This document shows positions 5,273 through 57,550 of a stretch of DNA of 64,000 nt, one piece after another. A program made the position numbers and the translations under genes. The notes under the pieces are model-generated. The model had not been told where the DNA came from. It made no database searches and worked only from the letters and a program-made list of their open reading frames with translations. Within the stretch, counting starts at the first letter, position 1. Each line of letters opens with the position of its first letter. The stretch comes from Bryobacterales bacterium (GTDB taxonomy: Bacteria; Acidobacteriota; Terriglobia; Bryobacterales; Bryobacteraceae), in NCBI GenBank assembly GCA_003164035.1, contig PLRS01000081.1:62001-126000 (forward strand), read 5' to 3'.

Positions 5273-5535
5273 CCCCTGGATCGTTTCCGCTGGGCGCTAC
5301 GCTGCCGTATCTTCGCAAAAGCCTCGGGGCCGTCCACGAATTCACCACGGTCGGCTTGCCCGGCTCCCACGGCGATTTCCTTGCGCAACTCGGCAAGCCG
5401 CAACTGCTTGAGATCTTCGCGCTCTTTCAACAGCCGGAGGCCTTCGCGCAAGATTTCGCTTTGCGTTTGGTAGTAGCCGCTCTTCAAGAGACCGGCCACA
5501 AAATCATCAAAGACTTGTCCGAGGTGGACGTTCAT
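5269..5535 (-). CDS. ParD-family antitoxin, apparently orphan
   Basis: An 88-residue protein starting MNVHLGQVFDDFVAGLLKSG, with the ribbon-helix-helix layout of ParD: a short beta strand, then YYQTQSEILREGLRLLKERED, then a disordered toxin-binding tail ending in basic residues. An upstream in-frame ATG (5550) would add five residues; the family start fits 5535. ParD normally binds and neutralises the ParE gyrase toxin and represses its own operon. Here the downstream toxin frame stops after 13 codons (5231-5272), so the antitoxin has no partner nearby. A palindrome overlapping a -35 box lies upstream (5565-5579), consistent with continued autoregulation. Confidence 0.8.
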   Translation of the reverse strand: MNVHLGQVFDDFVAGLLKSGYYQTQSEILREGLRLLKEREDLKQLRLAELRKEIAVGAGQADRGEFVDGPEAFAKIRQRSAQRKRSRG

Positions 5536-7792: not shown

Positions 7793-8957
7793 AAGCGAGG
7801 CGAGCGGGAAACGGCGGTTGCTGCCGCGGCGGCCGATGTGGGCGCCCATTTTCATCCTGGCCTGCTGCGCCATACCGGGGAGCGGCCAGACGCCGTGTGA
7901 CGAGGAGTCGGTCGTCTTCAACGGCCAATCATACGCCGTTCGGCTCGACTCGAATCACGTCAAGACCTACGGCTCTAGCTGGGTCGTGAACGACCAGCTA
8001 GAGCTTTGGACGCCCTACGATGGGGCCTGGCAGCAACTAAATGGTACTGACATCACGACTGAGGCGATCGGTAGCGCCAACCCCGGGGCCACGGCCTCGT
8101 CGGCATGGACGAGCACGCTGAGCGGCACTGGGCCCGGCTCGTACACCGATTACAGCTACCACTGGTTTGTACCGAACCAATCCTGCTCCTCCGACACATC
8201 CACCGACTACTTGGGCTATACAAGGAGCGCGGCTGTTGCTATACAACAGCCAGCAATAAGCGGAGCGAACGCATTCTGGTGGCTCGGCAGCGGCGTCCTC
8301 TCGGACGGCGGATACTACGCCCAGGCCGCCTGGAGCGCCGATCCGAATGGGGCGACGGGCACACCAACGTGGAGCGTGTACTACTATGGCTCGGGGCAGG
8401 TGAGCCTGAGCTGCACGAACTGCACGAGCACGACCGCGACCAGCCTGGCGGCGAGCCTTGGCTGCACCGCGGACATCAAAATTACGGTCAACTATGGGGG
8501 ATTCACGTCCAATCCCTTCTGGGTAACCATCGCGGCGCCGGCCCAACTGGTATTGGTGAGCGGGTACCCGCAGGACAAAGACGGAAATCCGAATGACTCG
8601 ACCGGCTGGACGAGCGTGTACGAGTGGAACCTGACAGACACCTGCGGGTACCAGGACCCGGGGCTTGATGGGTACGAGCTGTTCGGGCAGTGGACCCAAT
8701 ACAACGGTTCAAATTGGCCGTCGGCGCAGCCCGAGCCGCCAGCCAGCAACAGCGCCAGCATATGGAACGACGAGATGGCGAAGGGCGAGACCTACGGACT
8801 CAATCCCCCCGCCCGGCCGCTGCAGAACCCCTTGACCTCCATCCAGGCCGAGAGCGCTCCGTGGACGTTCACGGTTGGCTCGCTGACCGTGGGACTGGGC
8901 CTCCAGGTCGGGTCCAATACCTCCATGTACTATGTGGACCACGGTAGGCACCAGTGA
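7782..8957 (+). CDS. Exported protein with Ig-like segment, unknown function
   Basis: A 391-residue protein starting at GTG 7782, supported by AAAGGAG and the overlap with the previous stop. A basic N-terminus and hydrophobic core (WAPIFILACCAIPGSGQ) form the signal peptide. The mature protein is rich in Ser, Thr, Gly, Trp and Tyr and poor in charge, typical of extracellular proteins. Residues around VYYYGSGQVSLSCTNC and the following KITVNYGGFTSNPFWVTI look like a beta-sandwich (Ig-like) module found in secreted acidobacterial proteins. Paired cysteines in that segment could form disulfides. No catalytic motif is visible. Confidence 0.7.
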   Translation: MRNRSEASGKRRLLPRRPMWAPIFILACCAIPGSGQTPCDEESVVFNGQSYAVRLDSNHVKTYGSSWVVNDQLELWTPYDGAWQQLNGTDITTEAIGSANPGATASSAWTSTLSGTGPGSYTDYSYHWFVPNQSCSSDTSTDYLGYTRSAAVAIQQPAISGANAFWWLGSGVLSDGGYYAQAAWSADPNGATGTPTWSVYYYGSGQVSLSCTNCTSTTATSLAASLGCTADIKITVNYGGFTSNPFWVTIAAPAQLVLVSGYPQDKDGNPNDSTGWTSVYEWNLTDTCGYQDPGLDGYELFGQWTQYNGSNWPSAQPEPPASNSASIWNDEMAKGETYGLNPPARPLQNPLTSIQAESAPWTFTVGSLTVGLGLQVGSNTSMYYVDHGRHQ

Positions 8958-16987: not shown

Positions 16988-17016
16988 GCAACCGCTCCTT
17001 GACAGTCGCGGCTCGG
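16988..17016 (-). repeat. 29-bp interspersed repeat R1, copy 1
   Basis: GCAACCGCTCC...CGCGGCTCGG, a member of the R1 family (consensus on the other strand CCGAGCCGCGACCGT then NAGGGAGCGGTTGC). This copy has four differences from the consensus. It begins 20 bases after the permease stop. Confidence 0.75.
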
Positions 17017-17324: not shown

Positions 17325-17353
17325 GCAACCGCTCCCTAACGGTCGCGGCTCGG
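17325..17353 (-). repeat. R1 interspersed repeat, copy 2
   Basis: A near-consensus copy (GCAACCGCTCCCTAACGGTC continuing GCGGCTCGG). It lies immediately downstream of the dehydrogenase stop at 17366, between two convergent genes. Confidence 0.8.
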
Positions 17354-24153: not shown

Positions 24154-27100
24154 ATGTCACGGTGGTACAAGTTTCTTCTCCTCGCTGCGTTGCCTGTATT
24201 CCGACTTTGCGGGCAACAATTCGGCGAAGTCACAGGCACAGTCACGGATGCCAGCGGTGCGGTCATTGCGGGAGCCCAGGTTCGGGTGACGAATACCGCA
24301 ACACAACAAGCTCGTAGTGCGGCCAGCAACGACTCGGGCGTTTATTCCGTTCCCTATCTGGTGCCGGGCATGTATGCGGTCCGCGCCGAGAAATCCGGAT
24401 TCAAGGTCACCACACAGTCGGACGTGGAGGTACACGTCGGCGATGTGGCGCGTATCGATTTCCGGCTGGAACTCGGCGAGATCACCCAGCAGGTAGAGGT
24501 CACCGGCGGAGCGCCGCTGCTCAACACCGAATCGGTCGCCATCGGCAGCGTCATCGAATCGACGCAAATCGTGAACCTTCCCCTCAACGGGCGCGACTAT
24601 CTGAGTCTGGTGATGTTGAGTTCCAACGCGGTGGGAGAAATGACCGGTGGCGGTGGCAGTGGCTTGCAGGGCGGTGTGCGCTCTTCCGAGGCGATCTCGG
24701 TGGCTGGGCAGCGCCTGGAATACAACCACTATACGCTCGATGGGGTGGAAAACACCGATCCCAACTGGAACTCCTACATCATTCATCCATCGGTTGATGC
24801 GATTCAGGAATTCAAAGTGCTGACGGGCGTCTACTCAGCCGAGTTCGGGCGGGGAGCCTCGCAGATCAACGTCAATACCCTGCCTGGGGCGAATGCCTAC
24901 CATCTGGCGGCTTTCGAGTTTTTGCGGAATGACGACATGGACGCCAAACAATGGGAGCAGGTGGGCGCGAAGAATCCGTTTCGGCGCAACGATTACGGCT
25001 TCACGCTGTCGGGGCCGACCTCGATTCCCAAGATATTCAATGCCAAGAACCGGCTTTTTTTTATGTCGAATTTCGAAGCGCTCCGCGACCGGACCACTTA
25101 CCAGGAGATTGATCCGGTAGCTACCGACCTGATGCGCGCCGGCAACTTCACGCAAATCAGCCAGATCATTTACGATCCCCTGACGCGGGTCTACAATTCC
25201 TCCGGAGCGGGCACCGCCAACCCCTTTCCGGGAAACATAATCCCCGCCTCGGAGATCAGCCCGCAAACGGTGAACCTGCTCAAGTACTATCCGACCACGA
25301 CCATCCCGGGCGACACACTGAACGCGCGCAATTTCCATCGCAACGCCCTGTCGCCCACCGATTCCACCCAGTTCAACCAGCGAATCGACTGGGTCGAGAA
25401 CGCCAAATCGACCTGGTTCGGCCGTTTCAGTTGGGGCAACGATTTGCAAGAGGCCGCCGGCGCCTTTTACGGCGGAAACACGATTACCGGGACTATCGTT
25501 CGCCAGGCCGTGTTGGCCAATACTCGCATTCTGAGTCCCTCCATGGTGAACGAAGCCCGCTTCTCCTGGAATGAGTTCGAAAACAATCTGACCGGCGATT
25601 ACGCCAACACAACCAACGTGCAGGGCACGCTCGGCATCACTGGCCTGGCGGCTCCCAGTCCCTTGGCATACGGCATCCCGGCGATCGGTCTTGGGGAGGG
25701 TATCACTGGCTACGGCGGGATCACTCCGTGGATTACCAGGGACAATAACTTCCAGGGGACCGATACCGTCTCGATTCTCAAAGGCGGCCACAGCATCAAA
25801 GTGGGCGCCGACCTTCGCCGCCAGCGGTACGACCAGTATGGGAACCAGAAGACCGATGGCGAATTCGATTTCGACGGCCAGTCCACCTGCAATCCGGCCA
25901 GTTGCGCCTCGAGCGGTTTCATCTTTGCCGATTTCATGGTCGGTCTGCCTTACCAGGCCTACCGTGCGCTGGGCGAAGCCAACGCCATGATGCGCACCAC
26001 TTTCTTTGCCGGTTACGTCCAGGACGACTGGAAGGTCAGCCGAAAGCTTACTCTGAACCTCGGTTTACGCTACGAAAACGAGCGCCCGTGGGTGGACAAG
26101 TACAACGACATGATGAACATCCAGGCGTTTGACACGGGCGTGGGCCCGGCCGGAGCTTATCTGATTCCCAACGCGCAGGCACCGATCTTCACCAGACCGG
26201 GAAGCGGGAGCTTTTACCCCAACAGCGCGTGGGAATTCGGGCAAGGACAGGCGACGCAAGTCAGCAACGCCATGGGGCGAGGCCTGGTCAACCCCAGCGA
26301 CCGCAATTGGGGGCCGCGCGTCGGTCTGGCCTACAACCCGGCGCAACACTGGAGCATCCGGGCCGGTGTCGGGATGTTCTACGTGCAGGACATCACTAAC
26401 ATCGTTTTCGATATGGCCCGTAATCTGGCAGCTAAGGACGGGTATGTGATCCCCGTCAACGCGCGGACCACTTATCTTTCTTCTCCGTGGGCCACCGAGT
26501 CTGGCAGTCCCAATTGCCCGGGCTTTGGCGGGGTGTGCCTGGCGGCGCCTCAAGTCCAGGCCACCGATCAGAACAACCGCACGCCGTACGTGGAACAGTT
26601 TCTGCTGAACATACAGCGCGAATTGACACACCACATCGTAATGGAGGTCGGATACCTGGGGAATGAAGGACACCACCTGGACCGTTACCAGGTCCTGAAC
26701 CAGGCGATTCTTCCGAGCGGGCCGAACGACCATAGCAGCACCGCGTCGCGCCGTCCCTGGCCGTTATACGGCAATCTTCAGGAAGTGGCGGGCGTGGATA
26801 ACTCCAACTACCACGCCCTCAATTGGAAACTGACCCAGACGCCGGTCAAGGGCTTGGCCTACACGGTTGCGTTCACCTGGTCGAAGGCCATCGACGAGGG
26901 CAGCGCCACACGCACCAATTCCGGCGATACCCTTTGGCCGAACAACAGCTACACGCTGAACACCATGCGCGGGCTTTCGCAATTCGATGAGGGGCGCCGG
27001 TTTGTGGCTTCCTACGTGTACAATCTGCCGATCGGGCGGGGCACGAGCTTACTCGGCGCTGGCGCCGCCGGCGCGATCCTCGGCGGCTGGCAGCTCGGAG

Positions 27101-27531
27101 GCATCCTCACCCTGGCGGACGGCACGCCGGAACAGGGCTCCACGTTGGGCGATACCACCAACATCGGCAACCTAAACGATTTCCCGGAGGTCACGGGAAT
27201 TAGTCCGGTCCCGGCGAACCGCTCCGCGAGTAACTACTTTAATGCGGCCGCATTCAATTTCACCAGTCCGACCCTGTCCTATCTACCGGGTGATGAGGGA
27301 AGAAACGTGCTGTTAACTCCCGGGGTCGCAAACTTCGATGCCTCGCTGGTGAAGCTGATCCATATCCGAGAGAGCCACGCGGTGGTCGTCCGGTTTGAGG
27401 CCTTCAACTCAGTCAACCATCCCAACTGGAATGTGCCGCCTAACGATCCCCGGTCCCCGGCCACATTCGGCATCGTGACCAGCGCCAGGGCGATGCGGCA
27501 GTTGCAAGTCGCGCTGAAATATAGTTTTTGA
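24154..27531 (+). CDS. Oar-like TonB-dependent receptor
   Basis: A 1125-residue outer-membrane receptor. A signal peptide (MSRWYKFLLLAALPVFRLCG) precedes a carboxypeptidase-regulatory domain (GEVTGTVTDASGAVIAGAQV) at about 25-110, then a plug (VNLPLNGRDYLSLVMLSSNA) and a long barrel with Oar-like strands, ending QLQVALKYSF. The start at 24154 has AAGAAGGTGG upstream; the frame is open for 210 bases more but without homology. The family imports or senses large ligands and is highly expanded in Solibacter-type genomes. It is followed on the same strand by the secreted aldolase and DUF1080 genes, so they may serve the same substrate, probably a plant or microbial polymer fragment. Confidence 0.93.
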   Translation: MSRWYKFLLLAALPVFRLCGQQFGEVTGTVTDASGAVIAGAQVRVTNTATQQARSAASNDSGVYSVPYLVPGMYAVRAEKSGFKVTTQSDVEVHVGDVARIDFRLELGEITQQVEVTGGAPLLNTESVAIGSVIESTQIVNLPLNGRDYLSLVMLSSNAVGEMTGGGGSGLQGGVRSSEAISVAGQRLEYNHYTLDGVENTDPNWNSYIIHPSVDAIQEFKVLTGVYSAEFGRGASQINVNTLPGANAYHLAAFEFLRNDDMDAKQWEQVGAKNPFRRNDYGFTLSGPTSIPKIFNAKNRLFFMSNFEALRDRTTYQEIDPVATDLMRAGNFTQISQIIYDPLTRVYNSSGAGTANPFPGNIIPASEISPQTVNLLKYYPTTTIPGDTLNARNFHRNALSPTDSTQFNQRIDWVENAKSTWFGRFSWGNDLQEAAGAFYGGNTITGTIVRQAVLANTRILSPSMVNEARFSWNEFENNLTGDYANTTNVQGTLGITGLAAPSPLAYGIPAIGLGEGITGYGGITPWITRDNNFQGTDTVSILKGGHSIKVGADLRRQRYDQYGNQKTDGEFDFDGQSTCNPASCASSGFIFADFMVGLPYQAYRALGEANAMMRTTFFAGYVQDDWKVSRKLTLNLGLRYENERPWVDKYNDMMNIQAFDTGVGPAGAYLIPNAQAPIFTRPGSGSFYPNSAWEFGQGQATQVSNAMGRGLVNPSDRNWGPRVGLAYNPAQHWSIRAGVGMFYVQDITNIVFDMARNLAAKDGYVIPVNARTTYLSSPWATESGSPNCPGFGGVCLAAPQVQATDQNNRTPYVEQFLLNIQRELTHHIVMEVGYLGNEGHHLDRYQVLNQAILPSGPNDHSSTASRRPWPLYGNLQEVAGVDNSNYHALNWKLTQTPVKGLAYTVAFTWSKAIDEGSATRTNSGDTLWPNNSYTLNTMRGLSQFDEGRRFVASYVYNLPIGRGTSLLGAGAAGAILGGWQLGGILTLADGTPEQGSTLGDTTNIGNLNDFPEVTGISPVPANRSASNYFNAAAFNFTSPTLSYLPGDEGRNVLLTPGVANFDASLVKLIHIRESHAVVVRFEAFNSVNHPNWNVPPNDPRSPATFGIVTSARAMRQLQVALKYSF

Positions 27532-27637
27532 CGAGTCGAGGGAGGGGCGCATTTAACTGATCCACTTTACCGCGGCATCCGATGTTTGACAGAGCCGGCG
27601 GATTTCCGTTCGTTAAACAAGTTCGGAAAGGAAAATC

Positions 27638-28639
27638 ATGAAGAGTATTTCGAAGGGAACGTGTTGGCTGGGCTTGCCGGTGGCACTGGTATTCGGGGTT
27701 GCGGTCACGCTGGCCCAAAACGGGGAGTCGGCCTACAAGCCGAAGCGGATCAATCGAGCCGTCGAGTTGTTGGCGGACGGCCAGCCGATTTATTATACGG
27801 GCTCTCACACGGGAGCGCCGGGCGGGGGCGCGAGCGCGGAAGCCAGTTTTGAACAGGGTAAGAAGGACGCGCAGACTTACGCCGACTATATCAGCTACGA
27901 CATGGAACATACCGCTTACGACATTGTCGGGCTGACTGCATACATGAAGGGGCTGGTGGCGGGCGGCCCGACCAGGAGCGGCCATCGCACGCCGGCGGTG
28001 ATCGTCAATGTGCCTGTGAATGGCTTGGATGAAGCGTCGGTGCGCGCCAATGCCTGGATGTTCCAGCAGGTACTGGCCGCGGGTGTGCACGGAATCATGC
28101 TCACCCACGCGGAAACGCCGGGCGCCATTCGGGAGTTCGTTGAAGCCGTCCGCTTTCCAATCCACAAAGAGGGGATCGGGCCGCTGCTCGGTGAGGGTCA
28201 CCGGGGCGAGCACGGATCCGCCCCGGCCGCGGCGATCTGGGGAATTTCGTTACAAGAGTACGAGCAAAAGGCCGATCCGTGGCCGCTCAACCCGAACGGG
28301 GAGCTTCTGCTGGGCGTAAAGGAGGAAGATAAGTACGCCCTGGCGAACGTGGAAACCAACCTGCAAGTGCCGGGCATCGGAATGGCGGAGTGGGGGCCGG
28401 GAGACATGGCGCTGTCGCTGGGCGTACCCTCGGGGCGGGACGCAGTCAGCGACCCCAGAATGGTGGCTGCCCGAGCGAGAGTATTGGCGGCATGCAAAGC
28501 CAACCACGTCGCTTTCCTGAATTCCCTGGCTCCCGGTAATGCAATCGATATGATCAAGGAAGGCGTCATGGTGGGTCCGGCTAGCCGGGAGACTACCGAA
28601 ATCGGCCGTAAGTTCACCAAACGCCAGATGCCCTGGTAG
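27638..28639 (+). CDS. Secreted HpcH/HpaI-type aldolase
   Basis: A 333-residue protein with a signal peptide (WLGLPVALVFGVAVTLAQ). The mature part matches the HpcH/HpaI class II aldolase fold: DYISYDMEHTAYDIVGLTAY, HGIMLTHAETPGAIREFVEA and WGPGDMALSLGVPSG. Metal-binding E and D are present in DMEH and later. HpaI enzymes cleave 2-keto-4-hydroxy acids to pyruvate and an aldehyde in the cytoplasm; export is unusual. GGAAAGG lies upstream of the ATG. Positioned after the TonB receptor, before a DUF1080 protein and an R1 repeat. Reaction and substrate unknown. Confidence 0.8.
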   Translation: MKSISKGTCWLGLPVALVFGVAVTLAQNGESAYKPKRINRAVELLADGQPIYYTGSHTGAPGGGASAEASFEQGKKDAQTYADYISYDMEHTAYDIVGLTAYMKGLVAGGPTRSGHRTPAVIVNVPVNGLDEASVRANAWMFQQVLAAGVHGIMLTHAETPGAIREFVEAVRFPIHKEGIGPLLGEGHRGEHGSAPAAAIWGISLQEYEQKADPWPLNPNGELLLGVKEEDKYALANVETNLQVPGIGMAEWGPGDMALSLGVPSGRDAVSDPRMVAARARVLAACKANHVAFLNSLAPGNAIDMIKEGVMVGPASRETTEIGRKFTKRQMPW

Positions 28640-28665
28640 TTACCGGGCGGTTCTTTTTGCCGTTA

Positions 28666-28692
28666 CCGAGCCGCGACCGTCAGGGAGCGGTT
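28666..28692 (+). repeat. R1 interspersed repeat, copy 3
   Basis: CCGAGCCGCGACCGTCAGGG followed by AGCGGTT, 27 bases after the aldolase stop and in the opposite orientation to copies 1 and 2. Confidence 0.8.
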
Positions 28693-28741
28693 CTTTTCCG
28701 GACGGATATTTCAGACAGAGCAGTCGAGAAAACCACAACAC

Positions 28742-29482
28742 ATGAAACCATACCTAAGTTCGGTTGGCCTGACGCTGATGATGACGGCGGGCCTGTTCGG
28801 CGCGGACAACGTTCTGACTCCCCAAGAGAAAGCTGCGGGGTGGATACTCTTGTTCGACGGCAAGACGCTTAATGGCTGGGATTCGGCCGTTCCCTGGACT
28901 GGCGGGCAGGGGCCCGGCGCACCGGGGGCCGGGGCTCCAAAGCAGGCGAAAGCCGCGCCGCGAACCGGCGGCTCCCCGGCGCAAGGCTCCAATCCGCGGC
29001 CGTGCTCGACCGAAACGGCGACGGCCGCCGTCCCGCCGGGCGGTTCGCACTGGGAAGTCAAGGATGGAGTGCTTTCGCCGTGCGGACCGGTTTCGGGCTA
29101 TCTGACCTCGAAGCAGGACTATAAAGACCTGGTTCTTACGGTGGATTTCAAGACCGGCGAGGACACCAATAGCGGCGTATTTATTCGCTCTCCTGCGGGC
29201 AAGCTGGGCTATGAAGTGCAGATCTGGAAGGACCAGCCGGCGGGTTATAACACCGGCTCGATCGTCGGGGCGGGCAAGACCGACAAAGAGTATAAGTTCA
29301 TAGCCGACCAGTGGAACCACTACGAGATCACCGCCGATGGCGATCGCCTGGTGGTAGTGCTGAACGGAACCAAGACGCTGGATATTCACGACTCATCGTT
29401 TTCCGATGGCCGCATCCGTTTTCAGTATCAGAAATACCCAATCGAGTTTAAGAATGTCAAGATGCGAGAGATTAAGCACTGA
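28742..29482 (+). CDS. Secreted DUF1080 (3-keto-disaccharide hydrolase-like) protein
   Basis: A 246-residue protein with a signal peptide (MKPYLSSVGLTLMMTAGLFG). The DUF1080 LamG-like sandwich shows GWILLFDGKTLNGWDS, then DFKTGEDTNSGVFIRSPAGK, GYEVQIWKDQ and WNHYEITADGDRLVVVLNGT. Members of this family hydrolyse 3-keto-glycosides made by an oxidoreductase. Between residues about 45 and 98 there is an inserted low-complexity run of G, A, P, Q and S that splits the first strands; in relatives the two halves are adjacent. The domain is otherwise complete and the protein is probably periplasmic. Confidence 0.85.
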   Translation: MKPYLSSVGLTLMMTAGLFGADNVLTPQEKAAGWILLFDGKTLNGWDSAVPWTGGQGPGAPGAGAPKQAKAAPRTGGSPAQGSNPRPCSTETATAAVPPGGSHWEVKDGVLSPCGPVSGYLTSKQDYKDLVLTVDFKTGEDTNSGVFIRSPAGKLGYEVQIWKDQPAGYNTGSIVGAGKTDKEYKFIADQWNHYEITADGDRLVVVLNGTKTLDIHDSSFSDGRIRFQYQKYPIEFKNVKMREIKH

Positions 29483-29544
29483 TGCCTGGTGTTTAGGTGG
29501 GGCAGGCGGTTCCGCCTGCCCGCCAATTCTCTTACTGCATCCTA

Positions 29545-29635
29545 ATGAAACAAGCATGCCCAATCCTGCGGCCCTATGTGGCGCACGCACTCGTGCGTGC
29601 CGTATCGAGACTCTCTCGACACCCGCTCGCGTATG
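29545..29635 (+). repeat. R2 repeat element, copy B
   Basis: A copy of the left ~95 bases of the R2 element at 22743-22888: ATGAAACAAGCATGCCCAAT, then GTGGCGCACGCACTCGTGCG, then the GTCGAGACTC/CTCTCGACAC arms. It lacks the right-hand inverted end. It ends 30 bases before the MFS gene start, so it may form that gene's leader. Confidence 0.75.
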
Positions 29636-29665
29636 GTACGGGTCATTCCATGACAGGCTTTTAGC

Positions 29666-31021
29666 ATGATCAATCTCCGGCGAGCTTCCGAACGCCCTCC
29701 CAAGGCACCGGCCGATCCAGCCGACCTACCTCCCGCCAGCCGGGTGCGCTATCGCGTATTGGGTTTAAGTTTTCTGATGGCGTTCCTGATGTACATGGAA
29801 CGCGGCGCCATCGGCGCGGTGGCTCCGGCCATCATGCGCGAGTTCCACGTGAACAAGATCTCCATGGGCTGGGCGGTTTCGGCGTTCAACTGGTCCTACG
29901 CTCTGTTTCAGGTGCCGGGGGGCTGGATGGCCGACCGGTTCGGTCCGCGCCTCATTCTGGCCGGGGCCATGGCGTGGTGGTCGGTTTTCACCGCGGCCAC
30001 GGGGTTCACGTTCAACGTCTCTTCGTTGGCCGCCACGCGGTTTCTGTTTGGCGTGGGCGAAGCGGCGGCGTTCCCGGCCGGATCGCGGGCGCTGGTGCGC
30101 TGGCTGCCGGTCCGGCGGCGCGCCTTCGGACAGGGATTCCAGCATTCCGGCTCGCGTCTGGGCGCGGCGCTGGCTCCGGCCCTGGTGGTGACGCTGACCG
30201 CGCTGTCGGGTTGGAGGCCGGTCTTCTACATTTTTGGGGTAGTGGGAATCGCGTGGGCCTTCGCCTGGTATTGGTATTATCGCGATTATCCGCGCGAGCA
30301 CGCGGGCGTCAACGCCGAAGAGTTAGCCATCCTGGGGACGGCGGGCTCGCGGCCTCCGTCCGCGGCGCGGCCCGCCGTGCCCTGGGGGCCGATTCTACGC
30401 AGCCGCGATTTGTGGTACCTCAGCACGATTTATTTCTGTTACGGCTGGGTGCTGTGGTTGTATCTGGCCTGGTTTCCCAGTTACCTGCGGGAAGCGCGCC
30501 ACTTCACCCGGCTGGGGATGGGGTTGGCGAGCCTGCCTCTGCTGGCGGCGACTGTTACCAATGTGATGGGCGGGTTGTTATCGGACCGGCTGGCCCACCG
30601 TTGGAACGACTTGCGCCGCGGCCGGTTGATCGTTTCGATCGGCGGCTTCGCCATAGCGGGGATCGCCCTGTTACCGGGGGTTTTGGCGGCCAGCCCCATC
30701 GCGGCGATGATTTGTCTGACCATCGCGCTGGCTGGGCTGGAACTTACTGTCTCGGTGTCGTGGGCCATCTCGATCGATATCGGCGGCGACTTCAGCGGCT
30801 CGGTTTCTTCGGTCATGAATACCTGGGGCAATGTGGGCGGGGCTGTGTCCGCCGTTATGGTCGGCTATCTGGCTACGCTGCTTGGATGGACCTCGCCGTT
30901 TCTGGTGGCCAGCGCCTTGTGCCTGTTCTCGGCGCTGGTTGTCAGCCGCATCGATCCGCGCCGCTCGGCCACCGGCCAACCTGTGAGAGAATACAATACT
31001 TCGGGGAGCACACCGGTATGA
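29666..31021 (+). CDS. MFS transporter, anion:cation symporter (ACS) type
   Basis: A 451-residue, 12-helix permease. The loop 2-3 region is PGGWMADRFGPRLILAGAMA, and the protein carries W-S-x-x-F-Q-x-P-G-G and FLFGVGEAAAFPAGSRAL, typical of the ACS group (hexuronate, tartrate, glucarate transporters). It has no Shine-Dalgarno. Its last codons overlap the ferredoxin gene start as ATGA, so it belongs to the same transcript. The substrate is presumably an acid handled by the following Fe-S proteins and amidohydrolase, but this is inference. Confidence 0.9.
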   Translation: MINLRRASERPPKAPADPADLPPASRVRYRVLGLSFLMAFLMYMERGAIGAVAPAIMREFHVNKISMGWAVSAFNWSYALFQVPGGWMADRFGPRLILAGAMAWWSVFTAATGFTFNVSSLAATRFLFGVGEAAAFPAGSRALVRWLPVRRRAFGQGFQHSGSRLGAALAPALVVTLTALSGWRPVFYIFGVVGIAWAFAWYWYYRDYPREHAGVNAEELAILGTAGSRPPSAARPAVPWGPILRSRDLWYLSTIYFCYGWVLWLYLAWFPSYLREARHFTRLGMGLASLPLLAATVTNVMGGLLSDRLAHRWNDLRRGRLIVSIGGFAIAGIALLPGVLAASPIAAMICLTIALAGLELTVSVSWAISIDIGGDFSGSVSSVMNTWGNVGGAVSAVMVGYLATLLGWTSPFLVASALCLFSALVVSRIDPRRSATGQPVREYNTSGSTPV

Positions 31022-31836
31022 GAATCGACCCTGCTAAGTGCGTGGCCTGCGGCAACTGCACTTATGTGTGTCCCATGGGCGCGATCTACATCGATCCCGC
31101 CATCAAACGCGCCACCGTGAACCGCGACGAGTGCGTGGAGTGTTATGCCTGTTACAACGGTCTGAGCCAGGAGCACCTGAATCCGACGCTCGTGCGGACG
31201 ATGCGCAGGGTGTTCCAAATGATGCGGCTGCGTTTCGACCCCGAACCCGACGTCTGCCCGACGGCGGCGTTCGCGCCCGAGGATCTCGTCTGGCCGAGAG
31301 TGGTGCGGCGCGCCTTTTCCGACCCGCGCGTGCCGCACGAATCGACCGGCGTGGAAGGGCGCGGCACCGAAGAGGTGAAGACTAACGACATCAGCGGCCG
31401 GGTGAAGGTGGGCGAGGTGGGATTCACCATCGAATTCGGCCGGCCGGGAGTGGGCGTATGGTTCCGTGAGATCCAGGAGATGGCTTGGGTGCTGGCGCGC
31501 GCCGGAGTGGCGTTCGAAAAGAAGAACCCCATCACGTCGCTGATGTCCGACGTCTCCAGCGGCACTATCCGTGAAGATATCCTGAATGAAAAGGTACTGT
31601 CGGCGATTCTCGAAATCAAGGTCCCGGTGGCGCGCACCGAGGAAGTGATCCGGCTGGTGTGGGACGTGGAGAAGAGACTGGAGACGGTGGTGGCGCTGGG
31701 GGTAGGAACGCGGTGCGACGCGGACGGGGAAGAACGCACGGTGGCGCCGATTCTGGAACAGTTGGGATACAAGCTGGAGCGGGCCAAGACCAATACGGGA
31801 CTGGGGCGAATCACCAACGCCGCGCCGGTGAGTTAA
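31018..31836 (+). CDS. Ferredoxin-like protein with unusual second cluster site and unrecognised domain
   Basis: A 272-residue protein from ATG 31018, overlapping the MFS stop. Residues 1-20 hold a canonical [4Fe-4S] motif (C8, C11, C14, C18 in CVACGNCTYVCP). The second motif begins normally (C39, C42, C45 in DECVECYACY) but its fourth cysteine-proline is at residue 80 (DVCPTAAF), with about 34 residues inserted. From about residue 120 a ~150-residue domain follows (VKVGEVGFTIEFGRPGVGVW, AWVLARAGVAFEKKNP, AILEIKVPVARTEEVIRLVW), which I do not recognise. It could be a substrate- or cofactor-binding partner. It probably functions with the next protein. Confidence 0.75.
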   Translation: MRIDPAKCVACGNCTYVCPMGAIYIDPAIKRATVNRDECVECYACYNGLSQEHLNPTLVRTMRRVFQMMRLRFDPEPDVCPTAAFAPEDLVWPRVVRRAFSDPRVPHESTGVEGRGTEEVKTNDISGRVKVGEVGFTIEFGRPGVGVWFREIQEMAWVLARAGVAFEKKNPITSLMSDVSSGTIREDILNEKVLSAILEIKVPVARTEEVIRLVWDVEKRLETVVALGVGTRCDADGEERTVAPILEQLGYKLERAKTNTGLGRITNAAPVS

Positions 31837-31847
31837 AGGAGTTTTCA

Positions 31848-31872
31848 GAGCCGCGACCGTGAGGGAGCGGTT
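31848..31872 (+). repeat. R1 interspersed repeat, copy 4
   Basis: GAGCCGCGACCGTGAGGGAG continuing CGGTT, 12 bases after the ferredoxin stop and just before the next gene of the same cluster. Confidence 0.75.
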
Positions 31873-31914
31873 TGTACTCTTAGTGCGCAACGTGCCTTTA
31901 GGCGGAGAGACAAG

Positions 31915-32592
31915 ATGACTAACACTCTACATCGGTATGGAGACGCGGCCAGTTTCCACGACGATTACGTGGTTTTCGCCATCTGCAGCCGTGGCAAGAA
32001 CGACGAGGATTCGGTCCCCAAGCTGCGCCGGTTCCTGGAGATGGCGCTGCCGTTCCAACCGGTGAACCTGGGCGACGCCAGGCACGGCGGGGCGCTGCGG
32101 CCGTCGAAATCGATGCACCCGACGTCGCACTGGAAGCGGGAAGCGAAACCGGATTTTCAAGCCGTGATCGACGGCCTCGACACTCCCACCACGGCGGCGG
32201 CGGTATTCGACAACCGCGTGGCGGCGGAAGATTTCGTGAAGAGCGTGAAAGCCGCGGACCTGGGCCTGAGCGTGAATATCTCGACCTCCATCGATGGCGC
32301 CGAACAGTGCTGCCATGCGGCAGGTATCTGCCGCCACAGCGTGGGTTACTCACTCGGGTTTGAGGGCAAAACCGGGCATCTTCCCAATGAAGACGTGCTG
32401 AAGCTTTCCACCATGTGCGGACACGGGATGGTGAGCGCTTCGTTTGCCAAGAAGATGGTGGATTGGGTGAAAGAAGGGCGGCGAACCCCGGCGGAGGCGG
32501 TGACGTACCTGGCCCGCTTCTGCTCTTGCGGAGTGTTCAATCCGGCGCGCGCCAAACGGATTCTCGAAGATGCTCGCACCAGAACGAAGTAG
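31915..32592 (+). CDS. Cysteine-rich protein of unknown function
   Basis: A 225-residue soluble protein, without signal peptide, preceded by GGAGAGA. It has seven cysteines: C24 (VFAICSRGK), C132, C133 and C139 (EQCCHAAGICRHSVGYSLGF), C168 (STMCGHGMVS), C203 and C205 (FCSCGVFNPA). Several are next to His or Gly, as in metal or Fe-S binding proteins. No family is recognised. It sits between a ferredoxin-like gene and a secreted amidohydrolase, which starts inside its last codons (23-base overlap). The arrangement and the cysteines suggest a redox enzyme that receives electrons from the ferredoxin-like protein. Confidence 0.7.
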   Translation: MTNTLHRYGDAASFHDDYVVFAICSRGKNDEDSVPKLRRFLEMALPFQPVNLGDARHGGALRPSKSMHPTSHWKREAKPDFQAVIDGLDTPTTAAAVFDNRVAAEDFVKSVKAADLGLSVNISTSIDGAEQCCHAAGICRHSVGYSLGFEGKTGHLPNEDVLKLSTMCGHGMVSASFAKKMVDWVKEGRRTPAEAVTYLARFCSCGVFNPARAKRILEDARTRTK

Positions 32593-33892
32593 AATTGCCT
32601 GTTTGGCGGCGCTGCTCGTGGGCGCCTCTGCGCTTCATGCCGAGGTCAAGGTGCTGAAGGGCTTCACCCTGATCGACGGCTCCGGCCGCCCGCCGCTGGC
32701 CAACGCCGCCATGGTGATCGACGCCGGCCGGATTGTCTGGGTGGGCCCGGTGGCGCAACTCAAGGTACCGGCCGGGGTGGAGACGATCGACCTCGCCGGC
32801 AAGTACGTGATGCCCGGCATCATCAACCTGCACGGGCACCTCGGCAACACCATCGGCCTGACCCAGGATGCCAAGTTTTTCACCCGCGAAAACGTGGAGA
32901 AGAATCTCGATACCTATGCGTCTTACGGCGTGACGGCCATGCTCAGCATGGGTACCGACCAGGACCTGATTTTCGAGATTCGCGACCGGCAGCGCGCCGG
33001 CAGGCCTTCGACGACGCGGGTTTTCACAGCCGGCCAGGGGTTCATCTTCAAGGGCGGCTACGGCGGCATTGCGGGAGTGAACCAGGGCGTATCCAGCGTC
33101 GCCGAAGTGGAGCCGGCGGTGGCGGTGCAGGCGCGCAAGAAAGTTGACATGATCAAGCTTTGGATGGACGACGAACTGGGCAGGCTTCCCAAGATGCCCT
33201 ATCCGATCTCGAAGGCCATTATCGACGCCGCGCACCGACACCACCTGCGCGCGGCCGCGCACATCTTCTATTTGCAGGACGCGAAGCAGTTGACCGAATA
33301 CGGCGTGGACGGGCTGGCCCACAGCGTGCGCGACAAGCCCATCGACCAGGCGCTCATTGAGAGCATGAAGAAGCACGGCACCTGGCAGTTGGCGGCGACG
33401 CTCTCGCGCGAGGCGTCCATGTTCGTCTACGCCGGCCCCGCCCCGTTCCTCACCGATCCTTTCTTTATGCGCGGCGTGTCCCCGGTGGTCGTCGAGACGC
33501 TGCGCACCCCGGCGTATCGGGAGTCGATTTCATCCGGCGCCCATTTCAGAGAATATCCGGCCTTTCTCGAGACCGCCAAGAGGAACCTCAAAACACTGGT
33601 GGATGCGGGCGTGAAGTACGGTTTCGGCACCGATTCCGGCCCTCCCGGACGATTCCCCGGCTATTTCGAACATTGGGAAATGGAACTGATGGTGGAAGCC
33701 GGGCTGACGCCGGCGGAGGTTCTGACGGCGGCCACGCGCAATGCGGCGGAGTTTCTGGGAGCGAACGACCTCGGCACCTTGGAACGCTCCAAATGGGCCG
33801 ACCTGATCGTGCTCGACCGCAACCCGCTCGACGACATCAGGAACACCAGAACAATCGACGCGGTCTATATCGCCGGCAACCGGGTGAAATAA
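32570..33892 (+). CDS. Secreted amidohydrolase (imidazolonepropionase-like)
   Basis: A 440-residue metal-dependent hydrolase with a Sec signal (MLAPERSRIACLAALLVGAS, cleavage near ALHA). Metal ligands fit the amidohydrolase superfamily: H-x-H in PGIINLHGHLGN, a lysine in VDMIKLWMDDE, histidines in RAAAHIFYLQDA and DGLAHSVRD, and the catalytic aspartate in YGFGTDSGPPG. The C-terminal EFLGANDLGTLERSKWADLI and VLDRNPLDDIRNTRTIDAVY are typical of the family's closing beta sandwich. The substrate is unknown (a prolidase, imidazolone or cyclic amide hydrolase is possible). It overlaps the previous gene by 23 bases and is presumably co-translated. Confidence 0.88.
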   Translation: MLAPERSRIACLAALLVGASALHAEVKVLKGFTLIDGSGRPPLANAAMVIDAGRIVWVGPVAQLKVPAGVETIDLAGKYVMPGIINLHGHLGNTIGLTQDAKFFTRENVEKNLDTYASYGVTAMLSMGTDQDLIFEIRDRQRAGRPSTTRVFTAGQGFIFKGGYGGIAGVNQGVSSVAEVEPAVAVQARKKVDMIKLWMDDELGRLPKMPYPISKAIIDAAHRHHLRAAAHIFYLQDAKQLTEYGVDGLAHSVRDKPIDQALIESMKKHGTWQLAATLSREASMFVYAGPAPFLTDPFFMRGVSPVVVETLRTPAYRESISSGAHFREYPAFLETAKRNLKTLVDAGVKYGFGTDSGPPGRFPGYFEHWEMELMVEAGLTPAEVLTAATRNAAEFLGANDLGTLERSKWADLIVLDRNPLDDIRNTRTIDAVYIAGNRVK

Positions 33893-34083
33893 GGGCATCG
33901 ATATACTTGACGCGACCGGACTCGCCGGAAATTCGAGTCTGTCGCTTTGTCGCCGCGGGTTCCCCGCGTGAAGCCTCGTGGTCAGATGTGACGCTCAGGC
34001 CCACTGCCCGCGGCACAACTTCTTATTCGAGACCCCTAGATCCGCTTCCTGTCGCTCTGGCCCTCGGCGTGCCACAGAGCGGC

Positions 34084-35241
34084 ATGCGCACTGCATGGCT
34101 GGTTGTCGCTCTGTTGATGGCCTTTGGACCCGCAGCCTCCGGCCAGCGGCTCTATTGGGGCGCGATCGGAGGGACGAATCTCACTTCGGATTTTCCCCTC
34201 TACGACCTGAGCACACCGGCGGACGCTTACGGCAACCCTGCAGACAACTTCGAGCACCTGCCCGGTCCCCGCAAATTCATTTTGGGTGGCCTGCTGGAGG
34301 TCCAACTCACCAGCAGCTTTGCCATCGAGGCGGACATTTTGCATCGATCTCTGCCGGGCATCGGCGTCGATACGGAATTTCCGGCCGGCGGCCCCACCGT
34401 GACCACCAGATACAACACCCCATCGGCGAATACGTGGGAATTTCCCGTGATGCTGAAATGGAACCTGCCCTTCCCGCCGATATGGGGACGAGTCCGGCCG
34501 TTCCTCGAAGGCGGGCCTGCCTTCCGCACCTCGCAGGACAATTCGGGCACTCTGCCATCGCAATTCGGAGTGACTGCCGGGGTGGGCGCCGCCATCCACT
34601 TTGGCAAATTGCGCGTGGCGCCCACCATCCGGTACACGCGATGGGAGGAAGACGCAGGTTTTCCGAATTTTCCCACCAAGCCCGATCAGCTCGAGTTTCT
34701 GACCAGCGTGGCGTGGGGGACATCGTCAGACCCGGTGCCAGTGACCGGGCACGGGCTGAGTTTCGGGGTTTTGGCGGGATTATCCGTACTCGGTGAGCTC
34801 TACGACCCTTACACCGGAGTCAAGGAACACATCGGCGACCTGGGCGGGGTTTCGGGGCAACTGAAACTGCGCGAGGGCCTGGCGCTGGAGGCGGATGCCA
34901 TCTACAAGCCGCTGCACGGCGCGGATTTCACCGTGGTGACCTGGGATTTCCCGGTGTTGGCCAAATATCACGTGGCAAAGCTGGGGCGGGCGCCGTTCGT
35001 GGAGGCGGGGCCCTCCTTCCGGGTCTCCGGCAATCTGAACGGCTACAACCCCTCGCACTTCGGGGTGACGGCCGGGGCCGGCGCGGAGACACGCAAGGGC
35101 TGGGCGCTACTATCTACGGCGCTGCGTTACACCCGTTGGGTCAAGGATGGGTATCCGTACTCTCTGGCGCCCGCCGTGGGTTACAGTTATGAGCGGACGA
35201 ATGTCAATACCGTGGAATTGATATTCGGAATCGGTTTTTGA
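34084..35241 (+). CDS. Secreted double beta-barrel outer-membrane protein
   Basis: A 385-residue protein from ATG 34084 with a signal peptide (MRTAWLVVALLMAFGPAASG). Two similar units follow. Unit one: LEVQLTSSFAIEADILHRSL, WEFPVMLKWNLPFP, RPFLEGGPAFRTS, SQFGVTAGVGAAIHFG, APTIRYTRWEED. Unit two: LKLREGLALEADAIYKPLHG, WDFPVLAKYHVAK, PFVEAGPSFRVSG, SHFGVTAGAGAETRKG, STALRYTRWVKDG. The terminal sequence ends in I-G-F. The single-unit protein at 1210-1815 is a homologue. An internal duplication therefore made a two-barrel or one larger barrel. Frames upstream of 34084 lack homology. Confidence 0.8.
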   Translation: MRTAWLVVALLMAFGPAASGQRLYWGAIGGTNLTSDFPLYDLSTPADAYGNPADNFEHLPGPRKFILGGLLEVQLTSSFAIEADILHRSLPGIGVDTEFPAGGPTVTTRYNTPSANTWEFPVMLKWNLPFPPIWGRVRPFLEGGPAFRTSQDNSGTLPSQFGVTAGVGAAIHFGKLRVAPTIRYTRWEEDAGFPNFPTKPDQLEFLTSVAWGTSSDPVPVTGHGLSFGVLAGLSVLGELYDPYTGVKEHIGDLGGVSGQLKLREGLALEADAIYKPLHGADFTVVTWDFPVLAKYHVAKLGRAPFVEAGPSFRVSGNLNGYNPSHFGVTAGAGAETRKGWALLSTALRYTRWVKDGYPYSLAPAVGYSYERTNVNTVELIFGIGF

Positions 35242-35253
35242 TCGATGGTTTGA

Positions 35254-35814
35254 CCGTCCCTACTGGGACTCTCAAGCCCAGGCTGGTTCGCAACCGAGAA
35301 ATGGGACATTGAAGCAAAGAGTAGCGAACAGGTTGCGCATAGCGTCGAGGAAACACACCGCATGCTTCAGGGCTTGCTCGGCGAACGGTTTGGGTTGCGG
35401 ATTCACCGGCAAACCGAGCAGCGCCCGGCATACATACTGGCTGTCGGGAAGGGTGGACCAAAGTTCAAGGCAGCGGAGCCAGATGAGTCTACCAACTATC
35501 GAATTACCGGAAACTCCATTAGTTTGGAGCGAGGGGACCTCGCACGAATGGCGCAGATCCTCGCGACGGCATTAGGCAGACCGGTCATCGACCGAACCGG
35601 ACTCAGCGGGCACTACGATCTGTCCCTACAGTGGGACGATGCCCCCATCGGCGAAGGAGGCGTGCCGGGCCTGGATGCGCCCGTCGCGCAGGGGGACGAT
35701 CGCGGATCTATCTTCAGCGCGATTCAGGATCAGCTAGGCTTGCGGCTGGTGTCTCAGCGGGCGCCCGTTGAGGTCATCGTCGTCGACCGAATTGAGAGAC
35801 CATCTCAGAATTGA
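35254..35814 (+). pseudogene. 5'-truncated TIGR03435-family gene
   Basis: In-frame from just after a TGA at 35251 the reading is SPGWFATEKWDIEAKSSEQV, then EETHRMLQGLLGERFGLRIH, then AYILAVGKGGPKFKAAEPDE. W-F-x-T-E-K-x-D-I-x-A-K and M-L-Q-x-L-L-x-E-R-F-x-L are hallmarks of the soil-bacterium family TIGR03435; the C-terminal GRPVIDRTGLSGHYDLSLQW matches too. Family members have about 250 residues; here the first ~80 including the signal peptide are missing and replaced by the end of the barrel gene. The first ATG left is at 35362. The function of the family is not known to me. Confidence 0.7.
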
Positions 35815-35938
35815 GCTTCGGCGCGTCCACCGGCCAGTGGCGGAGAATCGCACTTTCTTGTTGGAGAAATGGAATGAACGCTTCCCACCTTAGCATCGCT
35901 TCGGCATCCGCCGCAGTTAGGCGCGGCAGCTTAGGCAT
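35774..35938 (-). pseudogene. Decayed HicA-type toxin gene
   Basis: Overlapping the hicB stop by 8 bases, the frame reads MPKLPRLTAADAEAMLRW then EAFIPFLQQESAILRHWPVD and stops after 54 residues. The start M-P-x-L-P-R-L-T-A and the helix are those of HicA, but the catalytic segment, normally G-F-x-x-x-R-Q-x-G-S-H, reads AFIPFLQQESAILRH, so the GSH with the essential histidine is lost, and the rest of the fold differs. It looks like a toxin damaged by mutation or small deletion. Confidence 0.5.
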
Positions 35939-36152
35939 GAACTTCGACCGCGGTGGTCAGAATCTCCTGGCTCAGCGCGGCCGAGCGCTCTTCATAAGTC
36001 AGAGTCTCCAGGAAGAGTTCGATTGCCTCGCGGATATTGACAAGTGTCTCCTCGACTGTCCTGCCTTGCGATTGGCACCCCCTCAGTTCCGGGCACCACG
36101 CGTAGCAGCCCTGCTCGTCCTGTTCGATTACGACGCTAACCTTGCCCGTCAT
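35931..36152 (-). CDS. HicB-family antitoxin
   Basis: A 73-residue protein (ATG 36152) starting MTGKVSVVIEQDEQGCYAWC and continuing PELRGCQSQGRTVEETLVNI, REAIELFLETL. This is the partial RNase H-like fold of HicB (E-x-D-x-x-G-x-Y-x-A-x-x-P-E-L-x-G-C-x-S-x-G-x-T-x-E-E-A). The C-terminal DNA-binding part is short or absent, as in many small HicB proteins. A TACAAT box (36168-36163 on this strand) suggests its own promoter. Its toxin gene appears damaged (35774-35938), so this antitoxin may be an orphan. Confidence 0.8.
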   Translation of the reverse strand: MTGKVSVVIEQDEQGCYAWCPELRGCQSQGRTVEETLVNIREAIELFLETLTYEERSAALSQEILTTAVEVHA

Positions 36153-57480: not shown

Positions 57481-57509
57481 GCAACCGCTCCCTCACGGGC
57501 GCGGCTCGG
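57481..57509 (-). repeat. R1 interspersed repeat, copy 5
   Basis: GCAACCGCTCCCTCACGGGC continuing GCGGCTCGG, 15 bases after the receptor stop. Forms a near-perfect inverted pair with the copy at 57522-57550, twelve bases away, so the RNA would fold into a very long hairpin. Confidence 0.85.
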
Positions 57510-57521
57510 TTTTGCGCGTTT

Positions 57522-57550
57522 CCGAGCCGCGACCGCCAGGGAGCGGTTGC
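57522..57550 (+). repeat. R1 interspersed repeat, copy 6
   Basis: CCGAGCCGCGACCGCCAGGG continuing AGCGGTTGC, inverted relative to copy 5. The two copies differ at two or three positions. Confidence 0.85.

Follow-up and report, generated by a model that had tools for sequence, protein, structure and literature searches.

A 64,000-nucleotide stretch of a Bryobacterales genome (contig PLRS01000081.1, positions 62,001 to 126,000; hereafter the window) carries two adjacent genes, both on the forward strand, whose products we call FD (272 aa, with a 2[4Fe-4S] ferredoxin domain) and CYS (225 aa, without known family). The two genes form an obligate pair and are both under strong purifying selection, and their conservation extends over different genera and families of soil bacteria within a single phylum, Acidobacteriota. 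FD-CYS is probably an undescribed enzyme for the use of some imported organic acid. In its specific form, which we advance tentatively and with a confidence slightly short of even, our proposal is that FD-CYS is a cytoplasmic ferredoxin-dependent two-subunit enzyme and acts on an organic anion that a secreted amidohydrolase (AMH) sets free and the neighboring transporter imports.

The pair lies in a block of four tightly packed forward-strand genes (MFS-FD-CYS-AMH, 29666-33892), for which the coordinates, overlaps, and 78-base gap given in an earlier note on this DNA were all confirmed. A major facilitator superfamily (MFS) permease of the anion:cation symporter (ACS) type (29666-31021; PF07690, E 1.4e-64) shares a 4-base ATGA overlap with FD (31018-31836), a 78-base spacer (31837-31914) separates FD from CYS (31915-32592), and CYS overlaps AMH (32570-33892; PF01979, E 6.3e-22) by 23 bases. 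Comparison with four relatives gave ratios of nonsynonymous to synonymous substitution rates of 0.067-0.098 for FD and 0.049-0.098 for CYS, versus 0.115-0.171 for MFS and 0.162-0.190 for AMH, and FD and CYS are thus the most constrained of the four genes. Considering these low ratios and that orthologues of both, 53-92% identical, are kept among 121 related genomes that we searched, FD and CYS are real genes.

Within those 121 genomes, CYS was detected in 47 and FD in 46, and the two occur together in 45, so that the co-occurrence the earlier note had suggested checking was found with only three singletons. Two of these (G073 and G075) are fragments at contig ends, and the third is a CYS alone in G029 (locus L121), in which no FD was detected; this copy lacks its N-terminal ~20 residues along with further positions that are otherwise invariant, and it is likely, judging from its sequence, to be a decaying gene after FD loss. 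We also examined a set of 93 loci, comprising 80 named GTDB loci (the best 80 of about 400) and 13 from more distant families, with gene calls from a simple codon-usage caller that make starts and spacings in relatives approximate. In 90 of these loci, FD is located immediately 5' of CYS, with both genes on one strand. Of the remaining three, L046 lies at the end of a contig, and in L096 and L106 CYS has lactonase-like and glucose-dehydrogenase-like beta-propeller genes beside it in place of FD. The window itself is an exception in having a spacer at the FD/CYS junction, which is a 4-base ATGA overlap in 60/87 loci. Distances of FD and CYS are strongly correlated (r = 0.92), whereas MFS does not track FD (r = 0.38).

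CYS has relatives at about 400 genome loci. Among 396 genomes drawn from the whole phylum, CYS was found in four (one a fragment) and FD in three, implying that the system is concentrated in the order of the window and a few other lineages. The named loci (the best 80 of about 400) belong to Acidobacteriota, the one exception being a record with Acidimicrobiia in its title that has the look of a mislabelled bin. Searches of plasmids by tblastn with FD, its C-terminal half, and CYS, and of viral contigs with CYS and FD, found nothing, and our literature searches found no paper on the FD-CYS pair.

FD combines a ferredoxin domain with a predicted C-terminal ACT/PII-like domain. Residues 1-46 match Fer4_10 (E 6.9e-10; 39.1 bits versus a cut-off of 25.5), which places FD among the 2[4Fe-4S] ferredoxins of the Fer4 clan, with the last Cys of the second motif displaced to position 80. 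The two [4Fe-4S] motifs, C8/C11/C14/C18 and C39/C42/C45...C80-P, occupy residues 1-85 (31018-31272) and comprise eight invariant Cys; no Cys is present four residues after C45, and the invariant C80-P81 comes 35 residues after it, suggesting that C80 probably takes the place of the missing fourth ligand. The C8-C18 and C39-C80 cysteines listed in the earlier note were therefore borne out, and an invariant C233 is additional to them, making nine of nine FD cysteines invariant in relatives. Residues 93-124 (31294-31389) form a near-invariant segment (PRVVRRAFSDP.VPHESTG..GRGTEEVKTND) modelled by AlphaFold 2 (AF2) with a predicted local distance difference test score (pLDDT) below 50. Residues 131-250 (31408-31767), which contain C233, are modelled with pLDDT of about 70-95 over most of the domain, and their predicted beta-alpha-beta-beta-alpha-beta order (residues 133-248) corresponds to a ferredoxin-like fold of the ACT/PII type. 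Foldseek searches with the FD model returned no match at E<=1e-3, and the C-terminal domain gave weak matches to PII (E 9e-3) and aspartate-kinase ACT (E 0.018, probability 0.98). While this domain resembles PII/ACT regulatory domains in fold, it differs from them in sequence (about 10-16% identity, a Foldseek E of 0.009 at best, and no Pfam match) and in being joined to ferredoxin clusters. Outside the Fer4 part, single-sequence and alignment searches revealed no Pfam, NCBIfam, or PDB match. The best NCBIfam match of FD is HgcB (NF040864, the mercury-methylation ferredoxin), with the ferredoxin motif as the only likeness; assignment to this family was rejected (30.3 bits versus a cut-off of 99), and FD differs from HgcB in its C-terminal part and in having no HgcA-like gene beside it.

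The same searches gave no Pfam, NCBIfam, or PDB match for CYS, in agreement with the earlier note, in which neither middle protein of the block had been recognised. Its AF2 model (pLDDT 85, predicted TM-score 0.86) had no PDB fold match by Foldseek at E<=1e-3. An N-terminal alpha/beta domain (31915-32379), starting with near-invariant MTNTLHR.G and having a ferredoxin-like order of elements in the model, is followed by a C-terminal helical domain (32386-32580) with the invariant residues of TMCGHGM (C168 and H170) and RFC.CG..NP.RA (C203 and C205). The seven cysteines of CYS in the window (C24, C132, C133, C139, C168, C203, and C205) had been described in the earlier note as lying in metal-like positions and, with those of FD, as suggesting a redox chain from the ferredoxin to CYS. 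In 30 CYS sequences, the only invariant Cys are C168, C203, and C205, with H170 also conserved, and the proposal needs narrowing accordingly; most relatives have P, A, or S in place of C24, there is free variation at C139, and the more distant members have lost C132/C133. A redox chain through all seven was therefore wrong in detail, considering that four of them are not conserved. In the AF2 model, C168/H170 fall in one loop and C203/C205 in another, both within the same small helical domain, and the natural reading of this C.H...C.C motif would be a metal or cluster site. The domain also exists free-standing as an open reading frame of ~90 residues in two genomes of one genus without full-length CYS or FD (G007, locus L118, about 7923-8165; G516, locus L164, about 5293-5478), and these copies keep the C.H...C.C pattern (MC.HG...C.CG). 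Weak matches to the C-terminal domain in G056, G383, G238, and G254 look degenerate or spurious and were set aside, and plasmid tblastn searches with the stand-alone domain yielded chance-level matches only.

AMH belongs to the amidohydrolase superfamily, with the HxH, Lys, two His, and Asp of its metal site (H88, H90, K196, H231, H251, and D355) all present and conserved in 31 sequences. Since these residues are kept and orthologues start with signal-peptide-like sequences, AMH is probably an active extracytoplasmic enzyme. Its closest solved relatives are amidohydrolases of the prolidase, amide-hydrolase, and L-Arg-carboxypeptidase types (PDB 2p9b, 3mtw, and 8ihq, including Cc2672), with which it shares the fold family and the full set of metal-site residues. 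Unlike them, AMH is tied to FD-CYS and scores below every curated NCBIfam cut-off, including that of Xaa-Pro dipeptidase (NF051886; 118.7 bits versus 500). A possible further analogue is the pairing of 6-hydroxynicotinate reductase with enamidase, which combines a ferredoxin-dependent reductase with an enzyme of the amidohydrolase superfamily; none of the 17 PDB matches of AMH at E<=1e-10 is named enamidase, and AMH differs from that system in being secreted.

An AMH homologue was found near FD-CYS in 28 of the 93 loci (19 directly downstream, six divergently upstream, and the rest elsewhere nearby). In one locus, an arylmalonate-decarboxylase-like protein (PF17645) and a cupin are encoded between AMH and FD (L034:7319-9143). 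At the level of genomes, AMH orthologues (E<=1e-95) are present in 44 of the 48 genomes with FD or CYS versus one of the 73 that have neither (Fisher 4e-27). AMH and the pair are on different contigs in 25 genomes. When 101 genomes were drawn again within the same family, partly overlapping with the first set, AMH was present in 29/32 genomes with the pair versus 0/69 without, with domain-only or spurious matches (G007, G516, and G049) counted as negative; among the genomes new to this draw, AMH is present in seven of the eight with CYS and in none without it. The neighborhood is thus conserved in relatives, with MFS upstream and AMH downstream, divergent, or unlinked but co-occurring. Neither a strong match to a known enzyme nor loss of the conserved neighborhood, the two results that the earlier note had named as speaking against its proposal, was observed.

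The transporter beside FD-CYS is interchangeable. An MFS homologue lies immediately 5' of FD in 51/93 loci, and in more distant lineages this position is taken by a complete TRAP transporter (DctP-DctQ-DctM, L137), a sodium:solute symporter (SSF, L143), or an Nramp transporter (L144), giving four unrelated families directly 5' of FD. This exchange of carriers at one position suggests that FD-CYS depends on the uptake of something, in most cases by ACS-type MFS or TRAP carriers, which belong to families known for organic anions. The best subfamily model of the MFS protein in the window is TIGR00893 (D-galactonate-type), to which it is related but not assigned (228 bits versus a cut-off of 395). 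The suggestion that permease and hydrolase bring in or open a substrate has been strengthened by the co-occurrence of AMH and the swapping of transporters, and the substrate role of the imported compound stays inferred.

Obligate pairing, conservation, co-occurrence with AMH, and transporter exchange are observed, and on them we base the following tentative mechanism. Outside the inner membrane, AMH would free an organic anion, which the exchangeable transporter (the ACS-type MFS in the window) would then import. FD, with its two [4Fe-4S] clusters, may draw electrons from the low-potential pool of the cell and, in a putative complex with CYS, hand them to a center in CYS where the imported compound would be converted. 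Such a flow of electrons between the two proteins is plausible, and the center would probably be a metal or cluster with C168, H170, C203, and C205 as its ligands. The ACT/PII-like domain of FD may bind either the substrate or an effector or regulator.

Several points weigh against this mechanism. L096 and L106 carry CYS without an adjoining FD, the ferredoxin half of FD is poorly modelled by AF2, and four of the 48 pair-bearing genomes are without a clear AMH orthologue. Nramp transporters usually carry metals, which fits poorly with an organic-anion substrate. A conservative sign test on the supported branches of a GuaB tree (six independent pairs, on average 4.1 changing the same way versus 0.1 in opposite ways, p 0.125) had the same direction as the co-occurrence but fell short of significance. 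The last result bears on the quite unlikely alternative that AMH and FD-CYS co-occur through shared ancestry or a co-transferred genomic island, without joint function, for which the origin of the genomes from related families also speaks. However, this GuaB tree of 90 genomes, which is built from one gene for genomes that share ancestry, requires about 17 changes of each trait, mostly together on the best tree, and in two within-genus contrasts (G405/G024 and G530/G035) one species has both AMH and CYS and the other has neither. The 25 genomes in which AMH is on a different contig also argue against a single island.

Other functions of the pair itself were also considered. L-Aspartate-semialdehyde sulfurtransferase, known from methanogens and Desulfovibrio, consists of MA1821 (DUF39/COG1900, with an essential Cys) and MA1822 (NIL plus ferredoxin) and carries out reductive sulfur transfer to aspartate semialdehyde (PMC5764234; PMC12068725). 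In a similar way, FD joins ferredoxin clusters to a ligand-binding-type domain, predicted to have an ACT/PII-like fold, and is paired with a separate partner protein, so a persulfide could form on a conserved Cys of CYS and the intermediate be reduced by FD. We consider this unlikely because the FD-CYS context is uptake and hydrolysis rather than amino-acid biosynthesis, the CYS sequence is unrelated, and neither the NIL domain (no match for FD at E<=1 nor for its C-terminal part at E<=10) nor DUF39 (no match in CYS or 11 homologues at E<=10) was detected. Since both tests of membership fail, FD-CYS is, as far as sequence can tell, an analogue of this sulfurtransferase and not a member, and the latter is the nearest documented arrangement. 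The chance is slimmer that FD-CYS serves metal handling or cofactor maturation, i.e., that AMH or another metalloenzyme is a client for which the pair assembles or reduces a metal or cluster. The free-standing form of the compact C.H...C.C domain and the Nramp gene in L144 are in line with such a role, but AMH has a signal-peptide-like start and FD and CYS have none, and the transporter position is mostly occupied by MFS, with TRAP and SSF among the replacements. Least probable, and in our opinion very unlikely, is a role of FD-CYS in sensing redox state or a ligand and thereby controlling the genes for the permease and the hydrolase. Regulatory ligands are often bound by ACT/PII-like folds, and the pair is linked to transporters; however, no DNA-binding or signalling domain was matched in FD or CYS, and invariance of a catalytic type extends over long stretches.

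Returning to the reading of FD-CYS as a ferredoxin-dependent enzyme, it is possible, though doubtful, that the pair founds a new two-subunit class for an unknown organic-acid step in Acidobacteriota, in which CYS would join domains in a new way, with its Cys/His/Cys/Cys metal or cluster site lying in an undescribed mobile domain, and FD would be a new ferredoxin-ACT-like fusion. If FD-CYS is an enzyme, it would add a ferredoxin-dependent reaction to pathways that secreted hydrolases supply. Neither CYS nor the C-terminal half of FD is covered by a family model despite the about 400 loci with CYS relatives. The co-occurrence of AMH even when unlinked, together with transporter swapping, provides a concrete handle on function in Acidobacteriota, for which most of the soil metabolism is still unassigned.

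Another gene may travel with the system. Of 19 loci in which AMH is away from FD-CYS in the genome, nine have directly 3' of AMH a gene for a xylose-isomerase-like TIM barrel protein with a signal sequence (PF01261) (L258, L259, L260, L261, L262, L264, L266, L269, and L270). Its orthologues (E<=1e-75) are present in 22 of the 48 FD-CYS genomes versus none of the 73 negatives (Fisher 4e-11), and because the genome of the window is without it, we regard membership of this gene as optional. A gene belonging to PF01261 is also located directly 3' of CYS in L135.

The spacer between FD and CYS in the window contains one copy (31850-31871) of a 22-base dispersed repeat, GCCGCGACCGTGAGGGAGCGGT, and the FD tail is shorter here. 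Six copies were found in the window at <=3 mismatches, with none expected, the others being at 28670-28691, 17328-17349, 16991-17012, 57484-57505, and 57526-57547. An Rfam search of 27000-36000 gave no match. The region upstream of the operon (27638-29482) encodes two further proteins, an HpcH/HpaI aldolase-like one with a signal sequence and one resembling 3-keto-disaccharide hydrolases (PF06439).

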